DNA from: Caenispirillum bisanense
GTDB taxonomy: Bacteria > Pseudomonadota > Alphaproteobacteria > Rhodospirillales > UBA2165
Direction of reading: 5' to 3'
DNA length: 64,000 nucleotides
Assembly: GCA_945877815.1 (NCBI GenBank)
Contig: CAMDWJ010000006.1
Coordinates: 1-64,000, forward strand
In this document: positions 3,139 through 57,136 of the stretch, piece by piece
Layout of the letters: each line of letters opens with the position of its first letter
Position numbering within the stretch: the first letter of the stretch is position 1
Position numbers and translations under genes: made by a program
Notes under the pieces: model-generated
Databases searched by the model: none
What the model was told of the DNA's origin: nothing
The model's input: the letters and a program-made list of their open reading frames with translations, nothing else

Positions 3139-4686
3139 ATGAGTTTTAATGACCTCGGTCTAAGCGACGAGGTGCTGCGGGCTGTCACAGACGCCGGCTA
3201 CACGGAGCCCACTCCGGTCCAAAAACAAGCGATACCGTACGTTTTGATGGGGCGTGATATTTTGGGATGTGCCCAGACGGGCACCGGCAAGACCGCCTCT
3301 TTCACGCTGCCCATGATCGACATTCTGGCCAACGGCCGCGCCCGCGCGCGCATGCCCAGAACGCTGATTCTCGAACCGACCCGCGAACTCGCGGCACAGG
3401 TCGCCGAGAATTTCGAAATTTATGGCAAATACAACAATCTCACGATGGCCAAGATCATCGGCGGCGAGTCCATGGCGGACCAGTCACGTGTCCTCGATCG
3501 CGGCGTCGATGTGCTGATAGCCACGCCCGGCCGCCTGATCGACATTTTCGAGCGCGGCGGCTTGCTGCTGAGCGACGTGAAGATACTGGTGATCGACGAA
3601 GCGGACCGCATGCTCGATATGGGCTTCATCCCGGACGTCGAACGTATCGTGGCATTGCTGCCGCGTATCCGCCAGACGCTGTTTTTTTCGGCCACCATGC
3701 CCCCGGAAATCAAGCGTTTGGCCGATGCTTTCCTGATGAACCCAAAGGAAATCACGGTTTCGCGCCCGGCAACAGTGGGCGAAAATATCGTCCAGTTCCT
3801 GGTGCCGATCGCACACCAAAACAAGCGCGACCATGAGGGTCTCGCGAAGAAGAAGCGCGAAACCCTGCGCAAGCTGATTGCCGACGAAAACCCCAAGGAC
3901 GCGCTCATTTTTTGCAATCGCAAGCGCGACGTCGACATCCTGTTCAAAAGCCTGCGCAGCCACGGTTTCAACACGTCACAGTTGCACGGTGACATGGTGC
4001 AATCGGCCCGAACCGAGACCATGGAACGGTTCAAAGCCGGTGAGGTGCGTTTCCTCGTCTGTTCCGACGTCGCTGCGCGCGGCCTCGATATCGACGATCT
4101 GTCGCATGTCTTCAATTTCGACGTGCCGATGCATGCAGAAGACTATGTGCACCGGATCGGCCGGACGGGACGCGCAGGACGTTCGGGAAGAGCCTTTACG
4201 CTCTATGCACCCGAGGACCAGAAATTCCTCGATTCCATCGAAAAACTGATCGGCAATCCGATCCCCCGATTCAATGTTGGCGGCGTTGCCGAGAGCGTGG
4301 AATCCCACGAGGCCGGATCCGACGTCGCGGAAGTAAAACCACGCGAACGTGCACCCCGCTCGCGTCAGCGCCAACCGCGACGCGAAAAATCAGCAGATAG
4401 CAGCCCGGTTCGAGCTGAACCGCGCGAACAGACGGTTGAGGAAGCTCAGCCGTTGGACCTTGCCCCCAGCCAGCCCGTCGTGGAGGTCGAAGCCGAAGCC
4501 CCCGCTCTGCGCCAGCACCGCGAGCCTCGCGAACATCGCGAGCCCCGTCCTCCGCGCGAACCGCGTGAGCATCGCGAATCCCGCGCGCCGCGCGAACAGC
4601 GCGACCGCCGTCCCGAGAACGAGCCGACCACCGTGGGTATGGGCGATCACGTTCCGGCCTTCCTGCTCCAGACCTTCAAGGTTTAA
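3139..4686 (+). CDS. rhlE: DEAD-box ATP-dependent RNA helicase, RhlE type
   Basis: 515 residues. The helicase core is complete: Q motif near residues 10-35, Walker A AQTGTGKT at 45-52, PTRELA at 80-85, TPGR at 129-132, DEAD at 153-156, SAT at 184-186, ARGLDID near 313-319, and HRIGRTGR at 338-345. The tail from about 390 is basic and disordered; about 455-500 is a run of Arg-Glu/His-Pro repeats that probably binds RNA. RhlE proteins remodel rRNA precursors and structured mRNAs. The ATG at 3139 gives the family start (MSFNDLGLSDE); an overlapping ATG at 3135 opens only a four-codon frame. Confidence 0.93.
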   Translation: MSFNDLGLSDEVLRAVTDAGYTEPTPVQKQAIPYVLMGRDILGCAQTGTGKTASFTLPMIDILANGRARARMPRTLILEPTRELAAQVAENFEIYGKYNNLTMAKIIGGESMADQSRVLDRGVDVLIATPGRLIDIFERGGLLLSDVKILVIDEADRMLDMGFIPDVERIVALLPRIRQTLFFSATMPPEIKRLADAFLMNPKEITVSRPATVGENIVQFLVPIAHQNKRDHEGLAKKKRETLRKLIADENPKDALIFCNRKRDVDILFKSLRSHGFNTSQLHGDMVQSARTETMERFKAGEVRFLVCSDVAARGLDIDDLSHVFNFDVPMHAEDYVHRIGRTGRAGRSGRAFTLYAPEDQKFLDSIEKLIGNPIPRFNVGGVAESVESHEAGSDVAEVKPRERAPRSRQRQPRREKSADSSPVRAEPREQTVEEAQPLDLAPSQPVVEVEAEAPALRQHREPREHREPRPPREPREHRESRAPREQRDRRPENEPTTVGMGDHVPAFLLQTFKV

Positions 4687-53963: not shown

Positions 53964-54980
53964 ATGATGAAATACAATTTTGTTGCCGGGCTTCTGGCAT
54001 TGCTCACGCTCTCCACCCCAGCACTCGCCCAGGAAGAGACCTTCTTCAAGGGCAAGGACATCACGCTCAGCGTCGGCGTCGGGCCGGGCGGCGGGTACGA
54101 CACTTATGCAAGGCTGTTCGCGCGCCATCTCGGTCGCCACGTCCCGGGCAACCCCAACGTCGTGGTCAAAAATGAGCCGGGCGCGGGCAGCCTGCGACTC
54201 GCCGTGCGCCTGTATAACGCGGCGCGCAAGGACGGCACGGAACTCGCTTTGATCCCCTCCTCGGTGGCGCTCGAGCCGCTGTTCGGCAATTCGGACGCGC
54301 AGTTCGAGACCGGCAAATTCCTCTGGGTCGGCAATCTCGATTCCGACGTCTCCAGCTGCGGCGTGTGGAAACATGCCAACGTCAAAAGCTGGGAGGATCT
54401 GAAGACGCGCGAGATCGTCTTCGGCGCGACCGGCCCGTCCGCCATCACCGCGATCCATCCGAACGTGATGGCCGCCCTGGTCGGGATCAAGATCAAGGTC
54501 ATCGCCGGCTATGCCGGCACGCGCGACATCAATATCGCCATGCAACGCGGCGAGGTCGATGCGACCTGCGGGATGTATATGAGCACCATCCGCTCGCAAT
54601 ATAAGCCGAACGTGGAGAACGGCGAGCTGTCCATCCTGATGACCTTCGGCAAGCAGCGCACCCCGGATTTCCCCAACGTTCCGAGCCTTTTCGAATTGGT
54701 GAAGCCGGGCGAAGACCGCCAGCTCGCCGATCTGATCTTCGGCGCCGACGCCATCGGCCGCCCGATCACAGCACCGCCCGGCCTGGCGCCCGAGCGCGTC
54801 GCCACGCTGAGGAAGGCCTTCGATGCCACGGTCGCCGATCCGGACTATCTGGCCGAGGCGGCGAAGATCGGTCTCAGCGTCACCTCGATGAACGGCGCCG
54901 AGTTGCAGAAGACCTTCGCCGCGTTCTACGAAACGCCGAAACCGGTGGTGGAAAAGGCACAGAAGGCGATGGGGAGGTAA
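53964..54980 (+). CDS. Tripartite tricarboxylate transporter (TctC/Bug) family substrate-binding protein
   Basis: 338 residues. Signal peptide about 1-23 (cleavage near ALA). The TctC/Bug domain follows: FFKGKDITLSVGVGPGGGYDTYARL, then NVVVKNEPGAGSLRLA, and TGPSAITAIHPNVM. Such proteins capture carboxylates or aromatic acids in the periplasm for a TctAB permease. No tctA or tctB lies nearby, so it is an orphan receptor. GGGAGG lies 4-5 nt upstream of the ATG at 53964. Confidence 0.88.
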   Translation: MMKYNFVAGLLALLTLSTPALAQEETFFKGKDITLSVGVGPGGGYDTYARLFARHLGRHVPGNPNVVVKNEPGAGSLRLAVRLYNAARKDGTELALIPSSVALEPLFGNSDAQFETGKFLWVGNLDSDVSSCGVWKHANVKSWEDLKTREIVFGATGPSAITAIHPNVMAALVGIKIKVIAGYAGTRDINIAMQRGEVDATCGMYMSTIRSQYKPNVENGELSILMTFGKQRTPDFPNVPSLFELVKPGEDRQLADLIFGADAIGRPITAPPGLAPERVATLRKAFDATVADPDYLAEAAKIGLSVTSMNGAELQKTFAAFYETPKPVVEKAQKAMGR

Positions 54981-54982
54981 AC

Positions 54983-55003
54983 GGGGCGGTTTTGGCTCGC
55001 CCC
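54983..55003 (+). terminator. GC hairpin after the binding-protein gene
   Basis: GGGGCG at 54983-54988 pairs with CGCCCC at 54998-55003 around a nine-base loop, directly after the stop at 54980. No T run follows, so it is a weak terminator or an mRNA end. Confidence 0.4.
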
Positions 55004-55056
55004 CAGAGAACACACTAACTTCAAACCGAGGACATTTCAGGGGGGCAGGTCATACG

Positions 55057-55210
55057 GAACATCCCCATCTCGGCACCCGGTGCCGCGAGTCGGAAGTGCT
55101 GACGCGCAAGCGCCCCCCTCACAGTGCCGATGCTGCGCAGCCTCGCAGCACTCCTGCACATCCCGCCCCATATGCTGGTGCAGCCCTACGCCACCAAGCG
55201 CACGGCTTAG
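55057..55210 (+). pseudogene. 5'-truncated, frameshifted HigA-type antitoxin remnant
   Basis: Reading from 55057 gives a HigA-like C-terminal half: PHLGTRCRESEVLTRKRP, then after one extra C in a C6 run (55113-55118) the frame continues LTVPMLRSLAALLHIPPHM and ends VQPYATKRTA at a TAG (55208-55210). HigA antitoxins share an SEVL..KRPLTLPM..L...LGIP pattern. No start codon exists upstream in frame and no toxin gene is adjacent. The extra C could also be a sequencing error, but the missing 5' half could not. Confidence 0.5.
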
Positions 55211-55276
55211 CCAGCCCGCTCGCGACCGGACGAACTTTCGGGTAGGATTGTCGGGCTGAAACGAAAGGTTTCGCCG

Positions 55277-55480
55277 ATGGTCAAAATTCGGAAAACGTCC
55301 TCCGACCGGCCTCCGCGCCGCCAGCGCCCGGATCGGGTCCACGACGAAAATAACGTGCCCCAAGTCGGCGCCTTAATCCCGCCCAGCGATTTCAAGAAAC
55401 TGCTGCTCGCCCCACACCCTATCGTCGACGATTGGGGGATCGAACGCCCGCGCGATTTCGGGCGCGACATCGATCTTTAG
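55277..55480 (+). CDS. Small orphan protein with a Phd/VapB-antitoxin-like tail
   Basis: 67 residues with GAAAGG 7 nt before the ATG. The C-terminus (HPIVDDWGIERPRDFGRDIDL) looks like the toxin-binding tails of Phd- or VapB-type antitoxins, which often end in R-D/E-V/I-D-L. The N-terminal half is basic and Pro/Arg-rich and does not look like the usual DNA-binding half. It may be a fragment of an antitoxin with a replaced N-terminus. No toxin follows. Confidence 0.4.
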   Translation: MVKIRKTSSDRPPRRQRPDRVHDENNVPQVGALIPPSDFKKLLLAPHPIVDDWGIERPRDFGRDIDL

Positions 55481-55539
55481 GTTTTGCGGTTCCGACCGCT
55501 CGTAAGGTGGATGTATCAGCCGGAATTGGAATTATTTTC

Positions 55540-55581
55540 TTGACAGGGCCAATCGCTTTCGGATATGTTTCTGTTTTGTTC
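55540..55581 (+). promoter_or_regulatory. Sigma-70 promoter overlapping a LexA-like operator
   Basis: TTGACA at 55540-55545, 18-bp spacer, TATGTT at 55564-55569. Overlapping the -10 is GTTT-N7-GTTC (55567-55581), one mismatch from the alphaproteobacterial LexA box GTTC-N7-GTTC. The promoter faces the 11-bp array. No known SOS gene follows. Confidence 0.45.
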
Positions 55582-55655
55582 TTTCCAAATGCCGCGTGAG
55601 GATGAGTCTCCTCGCCGGAACAAAGGATCATGCGCCACCATCAACCCAAACCGCG

Positions 55656-55743
55656 ATGCACAGAACATACACACAAAATGCACAGTAAATGCCTAGACGA
55701 TGCGAAGATGATGCCTAGATCATGCCTAGACGATGCACATATG
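55656..55743 (+). repeat. Eight-unit 11-bp tandem array (ATGCMYAGAHV-like)
   Basis: Units start exactly at 55656, 55667, 55678, 55689, 55700, 55711, 55722 and 55733. Five read ATGC-CTAGA or ATGC-ACAGA-like; the 55667 unit has ATAC. Two isolated units follow at 55786 (ATGCCTAGAA) and 55796 (ATGCACATAAA). The 11-bp period is close to one helix turn and is not a multiple of three. Confidence 0.8.
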
Positions 55744-55829
55744 GCTCCGGCCGATTTGGCCGATTTCCAACCTTCCCCAACGACGATGCCTAGAAATGCA
55801 CATAAATTTTCGCGATATGGGCATCCGTC

Positions 55830-55873
55830 CTTCGACAAGCTCAGGACGAGGCTTCGACAAGCTCAGGACGAGG
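55830..55873. repeat. Perfect 22-bp direct tandem repeat (REP-like unit)
   Basis: Two identical adjacent 22-bp copies (55830-55851, 55852-55873), each CTTCGACAAGCTCAGGACGA followed by GG. The same unit forms the inverted pair at 28803-28859. It lies at the 3' end of the GIY-YIG-like gene. Confidence 0.85.
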
Positions 55874-55883
55874 CTCCGACACC

Positions 55884-56234
55884 CTATTCGCTCATTGGGC
55901 AACTCAAGACCGGGCAGGTAAAGCGCGTGCCGAGCGGACGGTGCGGATGGGCCGTGGTTTCGGGCGGTGCGAAATCGTGGAACAGCCGGCATTCCTTCTC
56001 AAACGCGCGCCGCGTCGACACATAGGTGCGGTATTTGAAAGCATCGTAGCGACCGACAAAGGCTACAAGCTGACGGGCGAGATCGCGGTCGTCGCGCCCG
56101 ATCTTGCGAATGAAAAAGCGCCCTGCCCGCAGGTTGCCCAAGGCGTAGGTCCCGATCGACAGCGGCTCGATCGCCTGCGCGATCGCCTCGGCGGTCAAGG
56201 GAACGGGACCGAGCAATCCGGATTTAGCGGACAT
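55884..56234 (-). CDS. GIY-YIG-like small protein
   Basis: 116 residues. GTYALGN (about 28-34), then FFIRKIGR (about 40-47) and FEKECRLFHDF (about 78-88) recall the GIY, YIG/VGR and catalytic Glu regions of GIY-YIG nucleases, in a small one-domain arrangement. The C-terminus has a Cys pair (TCPVLSCP). Similar small proteins occur widely in bacteria with no proven activity; nuclease function is an inference. It lies 48 bp downstream of the GST gene and may be cotranscribed. Confidence 0.6.
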   Translation of the reverse strand: MSAKSGLLGPVPLTAEAIAQAIEPLSIGTYALGNLRAGRFFIRKIGRDDRDLARQLVAFVGRYDAFKYRTYVSTRRAFEKECRLFHDFAPPETTAHPHRPLGTRFTCPVLSCPMSE

Positions 56235-56282
56235 GTTCGGCCCCGGTTTTGTTCGATGCGACGCGGGACGCGACGGACCGTG

Positions 56283-57008
56283 TCAGCGCCCTGTGGTGGC
56301 CTGGGCGAGACGCTGGGCGTTGTCCTTGGTGTCGTAGATGTTCACCGCTTCCTTGCCCTCGGCGGCCTTGGCCATGCGCTCGCGGATCTCGGGCGCCATC
56401 TTGTCGTTGCGCTGCACCGCAGGGCGCGCGGCCATCGCCTTGAACCAGCGGTGGAAGTTCGGGTACTCGGCCTCGGTGATGCCGCGATCCTTGTAGCCCT
56501 TGCACCAGCCGTAGGTCGCCATGTCGGCGATGGTATATTCGTCGCAGCCGAGCCACGCACTGTCCTTCAAGCGGTTGTCGAGCACGCGATAGAGGCGGAT
56601 GGATTCGTTGTTATAGCGATCCTTGGCGTATTGGATGTTTTCCTTGGTGTAGGTGTTGAAGTGGTTGGCCTGGCCGAACATCGGGCCGATATGCGCCATT
56701 TGGAAAATCACCCATTGCAGCGTGTCGTAGCGCTGCCTCGCGTCCTTGGGCAAAAACTTGCCGAATTTCTCGGCCAGATAAATCAGAATCGCGCCCGATT
56801 CCATCATCGTATAAGGCTTGCCGCCCGGACCGTCGGGATCGACGAGGGTCGGGATCTTGTTGTTGGGCGACAGCTTCAGATATTCGGGTTTGAACTGATC
56901 CCCGAGGCGGATATTGACGTCGATATGTTTCCATTCGACTCCCAATTCCTCGAGCATGATCATGACCTTTTGGCCGTTCGGCGTCGGTGACGAATGAAGT
57001 TCGATCAT
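56283..57008 (-). CDS. Glutathione S-transferase, YghU/YfcG-like (Nu class)
   Basis: 241 residues from the ATG at 57008 with AGGAG 6 nt upstream. The thioredoxin-like N-domain contains SSPTPNGQKVMIMLEELG and NNKIPTLVDPDGPGG with the glutathione-binding ESGAI segment; the helical C-domain contains QWVIFQMAHIGPMFGQ and DEYTIADMATYGW. YghU/YfcG proteins have disulfide-bond reductase activity, using Thr/Asn near the TPNG segment instead of a catalytic Tyr or Cys. Confidence 0.93.
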   Translation of the reverse strand: MIELHSSPTPNGQKVMIMLEELGVEWKHIDVNIRLGDQFKPEYLKLSPNNKIPTLVDPDGPGGKPYTMMESGAILIYLAEKFGKFLPKDARQRYDTLQWVIFQMAHIGPMFGQANHFNTYTKENIQYAKDRYNNESIRLYRVLDNRLKDSAWLGCDEYTIADMATYGWCKGYKDRGITEAEYPNFHRWFKAMAARPAVQRNDKMAPEIRERMAKAAEGKEAVNIYDTKDNAQRLAQATTGR

Positions 57009-57136
57009 TTGCGGCTCCTCCTTGCGCCGCCGCCCCTGCCTTACGCGGGCCGGCTTCTGGTGCCGAGGTTGGCGGCGCCCCATCTGGGGGTTAAACTGGG
57101 GCGAAACGTTCCCCGATGCGCAGGAGTGTGATCGTC

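Follow-up and report, generated by a model that had tools for sequence, protein, structure and literature searches.

A phased 11-bp repeat array of Caenispirillum bisanense as a probable DNA site for a chromosomal relative of phage small terminase subunits

Closest described systems

How the small terminase subunit (TerS) of phages reads DNA, by wrapping it around the outside or by threading it through the channel, has been called a major debate (PMC11331095), and TerS-type sites are among the closest described counterparts of the element considered here, an array of eight 11-bp units in a 64,000-nucleotide stretch of Caenispirillum bisanense DNA (contig CAMDWJ010000006.1, positions 1 to 64,000; hereafter the window). 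Adjacent helix-turn-helix (HTH) motifs in TerS rings lie approximately one turn of B-DNA apart, and DNA of about 100 bp has been proposed to wrap the ring at the pac sites of SPP1/SF6-type phages, which are located at terS (Greive 2015, PMC4737164). The cosB site of lambda is laid out as R3, the integration host factor (IHF) site I1, R2, and R1 (PMC4856287), and in Staphylococcus aureus pathogenicity islands (SaPIs) and other phage-inducible chromosomal islands (PICIs) the gene for a small terminase subunit is separate from the phage and has a LexA box (PMC5052747). Gene transfer agents of the RcGTA type are phage-derived machinery carried by the host, and plasmid iteron origins hold phased direct repeats.

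From sequence comparison, the window array is probably a binding site for a relative of phage TerS that is encoded on the chromosome and stands alone. It shares with the SPP1/SF6-type pac sites a TerS of the same Pfam family, Terminase_2, and a class of site at the terS gene; in contrast, the SF6 HTH reads little sequence, whereas here one similar unit recurs per turn, and the arrays adjoin terS at its 3' end and are repeated dozens of times over the chromosome. As in lambda cosB, two groups of TerS-type units flank a spacer, which in a related bacterial family (f27) and at one further locus (L167) has an IHF-like core; unlike cosB, no cosN is shown, the window spacer matches the IHF consensus at only 6/9 positions, and the two phage gene families sought were not found. 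The SaPI/PICI arrangement differs in that the sites here are spread over the chromosome, and RcGTA-type agents in that PF03237 and PF04860 were not found in the genome that holds the window. Iteron origins resemble the arrays in their phased direct repeats, and in the IHF-like site of the related family, but the arrays here have 10/11-bp units, a linked TerS-like gene, and dozens of chromosomal copies.

Arrays and linked terS genes in C. bisanense

A sequence-only reading of the window had described eight units with an exact 11-bp period, most of them beginning with ATGC. Direct reading of 55656-55743 bore this out: units start at 55656, 55667, 55678, 55689, 55700, 55711, 55722, and 55733, with a pitch of exactly 11 bp, in the order ATGCACAGAAC ATACACACAAA ATGCACAGTAA ATGCCTAGACG ATGCGAAGATG ATGCCTAGATC ATGCCTAGACG ATGCACATATG, and 7 of the 8 begin with ATGC, the second with ATAC. 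The two extra units placed at 55786 (ATGCCTAGAA) and 55796 (ATGCACATAA) are likewise present, at 10-bp pitch. Tandem Repeats Finder returned the array as two period-11 stretches. Its lag-11 identity is 48/66, the maximum among 2000 dinucleotide shuffles of 55600-55900 being 35, and across the window in 301-bp tiles (n = 425) the value exceeded 31 in only two, both at 48.

A DNA search of the genome (G000; 3.98 Mb in 84 contigs, with the window on contig C6) using positions 55500-55830 gave 12 further matches at 11 places. A pattern search for arrays of this kind (class A) identified 14 loci, the window included, and 0 with the reversed-pattern control; isolated two-mismatch matches at C24 and C25:12036 were left out, C10 being reassigned to class B/C. 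The class-A plan comprises a promoter block, a variable leader, approximately eight 11-bp units, a spacer in which a GATTTCC block is frequent, and a further two or three units with a pitch of 10 bp. The 11-bp units are made up of few words, in an order that differs among loci, and an inverted unit is often present; among 102 class-A units, T2, G3, C4, and A7 were found at 90-97%, and positions 5, 6, 10, and 11 are variable. One copy, on C12, is truncated, with three units. Between the final 11-bp unit and the first of the 10-bp units, the distance is 53-54, 65, or 76 bp in 13 class-A copies of this genome, the C12 copy giving none, and 53, 54, 64, 65, or 97 bp in five copies of the sister species G001; the whole-turn steps were given no weight, because decay by whole units would yield identical steps.

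Searching with the promoter block led to a second class, with units ATGTCGATNNN, and the pattern TGTNGA at 11 bp identified 23 class-B/C loci (control, 0). One further sister-class array, behind terS-C on C39, was read directly, giving 24 sister-class loci of 5-13 units in register each and a total of 38 arrays that were compared jointly.

On C22, a class-A array starts approximately 10 bp past the stop codon of a 188-amino acid Terminase_2 gene (terS-A; lag-11 identity 48/66), and on C36 a class-B array lies directly past the stop codon of a second such gene (terS-B; 51/66). Behind the third (terS-C, on C39) is a short unit set, which by eye has a GGYCTATGAA unit in common with some class-C satellites. 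The E values for Pfam Terminase_2 were 2.7e-12, 4e-14, and 1.2e-10 for terS-A, terS-B, and terS-C, respectively, and the PF03592 bit scores (48.0, 53.9, and 42.7) all exceed the gathering score of 26.1; by these profile matches, the array-linked genes are members of the Terminase_2 small-subunit family. A phmmer search with the terS-B protein matched three terminase small subunits of solved structure (3zqp, 4zc3, and 2cmp; E 0.0003-0.0035), which we take to be those of phage SF6, and the protein matched PHROG 51 "terminase small subunit" with an E value of 4.7e-19; PADLOC and NCBIfam gave no match for terS-A or terS-B. The Terminase_2 genes of this genome are located on C3, C22, C36, and C39, and the window copy is not beside any of them. 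The earlier idea of a protein binding each unit on one face of the DNA, in the manner of an iteron or a phased operator, is supported and gains a candidate in a TerS-like HTH protein with a class-A array at the stop codon of its gene. As a separate observation, a basic C-terminal tail (ARKR-R-S) was seen in TerS-like proteins A, C, and that of G001 C30 (L059, L401, and L405); it is missing in class B and in two TerS without an 11-bp array.

Relatives, promoter blocks, and surroundings

Arrays in G001 follow the same plan and pitch with different words (ATGATGAGAGA, ATGCTAAGACG). Three array pairs were judged orthologous by eye from the neighbouring sequence, namely C32 with G001 C9, C22 with G001 C30 (both behind terS), and C57 with G001 C2. 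The suggestion that spacing would be kept in relatives while sequence drifts held at these three loci, where the pitch is 11 bp and the words have changed. Irregular spacing in close relatives, or absence of the array there with no conservation of the flanks, had been named beforehand as grounds for abandoning the idea; the outcome was mixed, in that the array is missing at the window's own orthologous site, but the flanks are conserved there (83% identity on both sides), and the three other loci retain theirs. Because G001 retains three orthologues and has the window site without an array, arrays have been both kept and gained or lost.

Across the order, a search with the terS-B protein gave a match in 43 of 199 genomes, the C. 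bisanense genome included. Forty-seven terS loci outside the genus were taken, of which 3 were dropped for open reading frame (ORF) length, leaving 44 testable; L427, which runs off the end of its contig, and some weak matches of the search were left out. The control was a random draw of 120 gene ends out of a bigger set, each shuffled 200 times versus 400 times for terS. At the terS 3' ends, periodicity (shuffle p ≤ 0.01) was seen at 10 bp in 16/44 and at 11 bp in 4/44, 19 distinct ends, compared with 3/120 and 0/120 control ends; other periods from 7 to 15 gave 0-3 terS ends each. At one terS locus of another bacterial family (L477), a run of ten units begins at the stop codon; eight are in 11-bp register and the final three are spaced at 10 bp, a mix much like the window's. 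At L468 the 11-bp units number eight or more. Separately, two terS 3' ends of G002 (L476 and L478) carry 10-bp units of a very different word, AANCGTNA, which suggests that even the TG-NNN-A frame may be replaceable.

In a second bacterial family (f27), the pattern GACGA at 11 bp identified arrays in genus g60: 11 loci in G189, 6 in G091, and 10 in G172 (control, 0), thus 27 loci in three species, three of them at terS genes. The pattern was absent from three other genomes tested. The layout was read in 12 of the 27 loci: a 10-bp pair lies 86-87 bp ahead of the array in 10, and the best core match lies 34-36 bp ahead of it in all 12, agreeing with WATCAANNNNTTR, which we take to be the IHF consensus, at 9/9 positions in 4 loci, 8/9 in 6, and 7/9 in 2. 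L167, on a Rhodospirillales metagenome-assembled genome (MAG) contig (JABMOY010000149), combines an exact LexA box, identified by eye, with a unit of the 10-bp type, a core matching at 9/9, and a set of nine 11-bp units. For terS 3' ends across the order, a core match of ≥9/11 was seen in 5/44 versus 3/179 controls and an IHF match of ≥8/9 in 6/44 versus 7/185 controls. Among the 38 arrays of the C. bisanense genome, the IHF match was 9/9 in 2, and no other reached 8 (shuffles, 3.3% at ≥8); given this, and the 6/9 of the window spacer, IHF is not claimed for the window's genus.

The SOS-like promoter proposed upstream of the array is present as sequence, with an UP-like block, TTGACA, and a 7/8 match to GTTC-N7-GTTC, which we take to be the alphaproteobacterial LexA box (Table 1). 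The UP-like block and −35 motif are common to many arrays. LexA-like boxes of at least 7/8 lie near the −10 in 14 of the 38 loci (7 of them exact, 8/8) versus 3.3% of shuffles, and an exact box precedes terS-A and terS-B, terS-C having only 5/8. Across the order, 8/8 boxes precede 5/41 terS genes versus 0.24% of shuffles, and boxes of at least 7/8 precede 20/41 versus 13.6%. For the g60 arrays, an exact box lies within 300 bp in 4/12 versus 1.1%; two of these share a nearly identical leader. Promoter scores were above all shuffles (maximum 22) in 20 of the 38 loci and not in the other 18; the scan chose doubtful promoters at C23, C9, and C19, so the LexA counts are possibly too low. Two side observations concern these regions. 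A class-A-type array of G001 C22 (L101) is closely followed by a gene that has a separate, exact LexA-type box, GTTCTTGAAATGTTC, and may encode a radical SAM protein, and palindromic repeats of the GGATGCCCCGGACAAGCCGGGG type occur within the leaders of some class-A arrays (L061, L063, and L064).

Table 1. Coordinates of the array and associated features in the window
Feature	Position	Strand	Basis or remark
UP-like block GGAATTATTTTC (55528-55539) and −35 TTGACA (55540-55545)	55528..55545	+	motif match 12/12, 5/5
−10-like hexamer TATGTT	55564..55569	+	18-bp spacing from −35
LexA-like box GTTTCTGTTTTGTTC	55567..55581	+	7/8 of GTTC-N7-GTTC
Leader, promoter to array	55582..55655	+	varies among class-A copies
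Eight 11-bp units (frame ATGCNNANNNN), candidate TerS binding units	55656..55743	+	read from sequence, period search, lag-11 test
Spacer with GATTTCC block, separating two unit groups	55744..55785	+	comparison of copies
Two 10-bp units ATGCCTAGAA ATGCACATAA	55786..55805	+	first starts 53 bp after unit 8 start
Inverted unit TATGGGCAT (reverse complement ATGCCCATA), past 10-bp units	55816..55824	-	by eye

Comparable inverted units were seen by eye past the 10-bp units in some other class-A copies. Upstream of the window array, a TctC-type receptor gene ends at 54980 and is followed by a small ORF (55277-55480); downstream lies a 116-amino acid ORF on the minus strand (55884-56234), with a counterpart in the sister species. 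Pfam matches flanking the array are to TctC, GST, SelR, EamA, and LigB. A coding reading was rejected: a 131-amino acid ORF (55630-56025, plus strand) spans the array, has no Pfam match, and 11 is not a multiple of 3. In a rough scan of class A only, all 14 arrays lie outside long ORFs rich in GC at third codon positions. Directly after the element, a 22-bp unit, CTTCGACAAGCTCAGGACGAGG, is present in 2.4 tandem copies (55830-55881), and related CTTCGACAAGCTCAGG stretches adjoin some other arrays (C1:52909, C27, and G001 C28). A GC-rich tandem repeat of CGCGAAC words at 4519-4608 of the window (period 9/18/36) is unrelated to the array.

Possible function and competing explanations

By analogy with phage TerS, the TerS-like protein would form a ring in which each HTH would contact one unit, with one HTH per DNA turn. 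The 88-bp array would wrap this ring, given the spacing of about one B-DNA turn between adjacent HTHs in known TerS rings, and the 10-bp units would assist from the other side of the spacer; eight 11-bp units would fit the proposed wrap of about 100 bp directly. As to purpose, the arrays may, tentatively, be pac/cos-like sites at which an SOS-induced host TerS recruits a phage large terminase and diverts packaging to the chromosome. Such diversion would act on incoming or induced phage, much as satellites of the SaPI type turn packaging to the DNA of the satellite itself, and we lean toward it because SaPI operon I, which includes terS, is LexA-controlled (PMC5052747). The more extensive proposal of a host-owned, helper-dependent system of DNA export or phage diversion, in which several SOS-induced TerS each have their own scattered pac-like arrays and take over the packaging motor of an incoming or induced phage, is more doubtful; host DNA would then be packaged from dozens of fixed starts, starving the phage and spreading the chromosome. 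The site class shares with pac and cos sites a position within or beside a terS gene, clear on C22 and C36 and weak on C39. The window array itself is laid out much like a pac/cos site but was not filed as one, because no phage genome context was found for it in the search for PF03237 and PF04860, it is not beside terS, and its binding is predicted only.

A number of results weigh against the TerS-site reading. Neither the large terminase PF03237 nor the portal PF04860 was found in the C. bisanense genome in a search limited to these two families (other TerL and portal families and capsid were not covered), with positive controls in Caulobacter and others. Phage or prophage context was thus not found, a gene transfer agent or prophage reading is unsupported, and a helper or packaging partner of those kinds would be needed from outside. 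Among IMG/VR sequences, 53 pattern matches were obtained and 0 confirmed as relatives, and 50,697 phage records gave only two weak partial matches. At the window's orthologous site in G001, a 6.3-kb stretch (L509), there is no 11-bp array (29/66). The unit set behind terS-C is irregular, with a lag-11 identity of only 31/66, and the Terminase_2 genes of C3 and G001 C2 have no 11-bp array (27/66 and 32/66). Across the order, 25 of the 44 terS 3' ends lack significant 10/11-bp periodicity, and the counts are not independent because related loci are among the 44. The main class-B group (n = 12) has no LexA-like box in the promoter scan, and a promoter ahead of the arrays is unexplained by DNA binding alone. 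As for the described proteins, the HTH of SF6 TerS discriminates little between sequences in vitro (PMC4737164), and HK97 TerS threads DNA through its channel (PMC11331095).

About equally likely as packaging diversion is a regulatory role, in which a co-opted TerS-like protein with no part in packaging would bind the arrays as an SOS-induced, DNA-wrapping repressor or roadblock; an array behind a promoter would limit the transcript, and one behind terS would serve autoregulation. Consistent with this role, promoter-like blocks precede the arrays in matching orientation, transcription from the packaging operon is reported to be lowered by TerS-pac complexes (PMC4737164), and no PF03237 or PF04860 gene was found in the genome. 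On the other side, no product that the satellites could regulate is evident: a rough scan puts the nearest long ORF downstream on the opposite strand in 8 of the 13 class-A copies that have one. The presence in one genome of several TerS classes, each with words of its own, also seems to exceed simple autoregulation. Spread for its own sake is improbable: here promoter-terS-array would be an autonomous mobile element, promoter-array copies would be non-autonomous, and the arrays would serve spread only. It would account for approximately 38 diverged copies in the genome, the terS classes with their satellites, the truncated copy on C12, and the array-free G001 site with conserved flanks, but TerS is not a transposase, and old, diverged copies keep promoter block and pitch, which pure hitch-hiking does not predict.

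A function at the RNA level, with the promoter yielding an active repeat RNA as sponge or scaffold, is very improbable. Promoter blocks are shared among arrays, and class-B leaders have a small hairpin in which 3/8 pairs are changed on both sides in some sequence; this hairpin was nonetheless rejected as weak, with a covariation term of only −0.41 and ordinary individual folds (z-scores −1.97 to 1.52). Rfam gave no match to E 1 over 54900-57100, and units with a 10/11-bp pitch at coding-gene ends across the order suit DNA better. Functionless tandem expansion by slippage, which had been raised as an alternative for so small an array, is in effect refuted here: class-A words at 11-bp pitch recur in varied unit order at 14 dispersed loci, the orthologous G001 arrays have altered words at an unchanged pitch, and arrays are linked to terS. 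Short 11-bp tandem repeats are, on the other hand, common; the generic pattern TGNNNAG x5 at 11 bp gave at least 119 stretches in public genomes, and on viral contigs 84 versus 70 for the reversed control. Since these are mostly plain tandem repeats, they were not used as evidence, except L167 on its own merits. Five Bacteroidales contigs (L110, L114, L120, L144, and L161), three of them in one MAG (UBA3630), were seen to carry 11-bp arrays of ATGCCTAG/ATGCTTAG words; these are possibly a distant parallel, or else ordinary tandem repeats.

The reading of the window array as a site for a TerS relative bears on how TerS reads DNA: one unit per helical turn, kept through word drift and linked to terS, would be natural evidence for wrapping, and an array of the window type would be a ready substrate for TerS structure work. 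No description of dispersed chromosomal TerS-type sites was found in the titles and abstract openings of the open-access papers listed by text searches. If the reading is correct, a scatter of dozens of TerS-type sites, bearing LexA-like boxes, over a chromosome in which PF03237 and PF04860 were not found would represent an undescribed use of packaging machinery.
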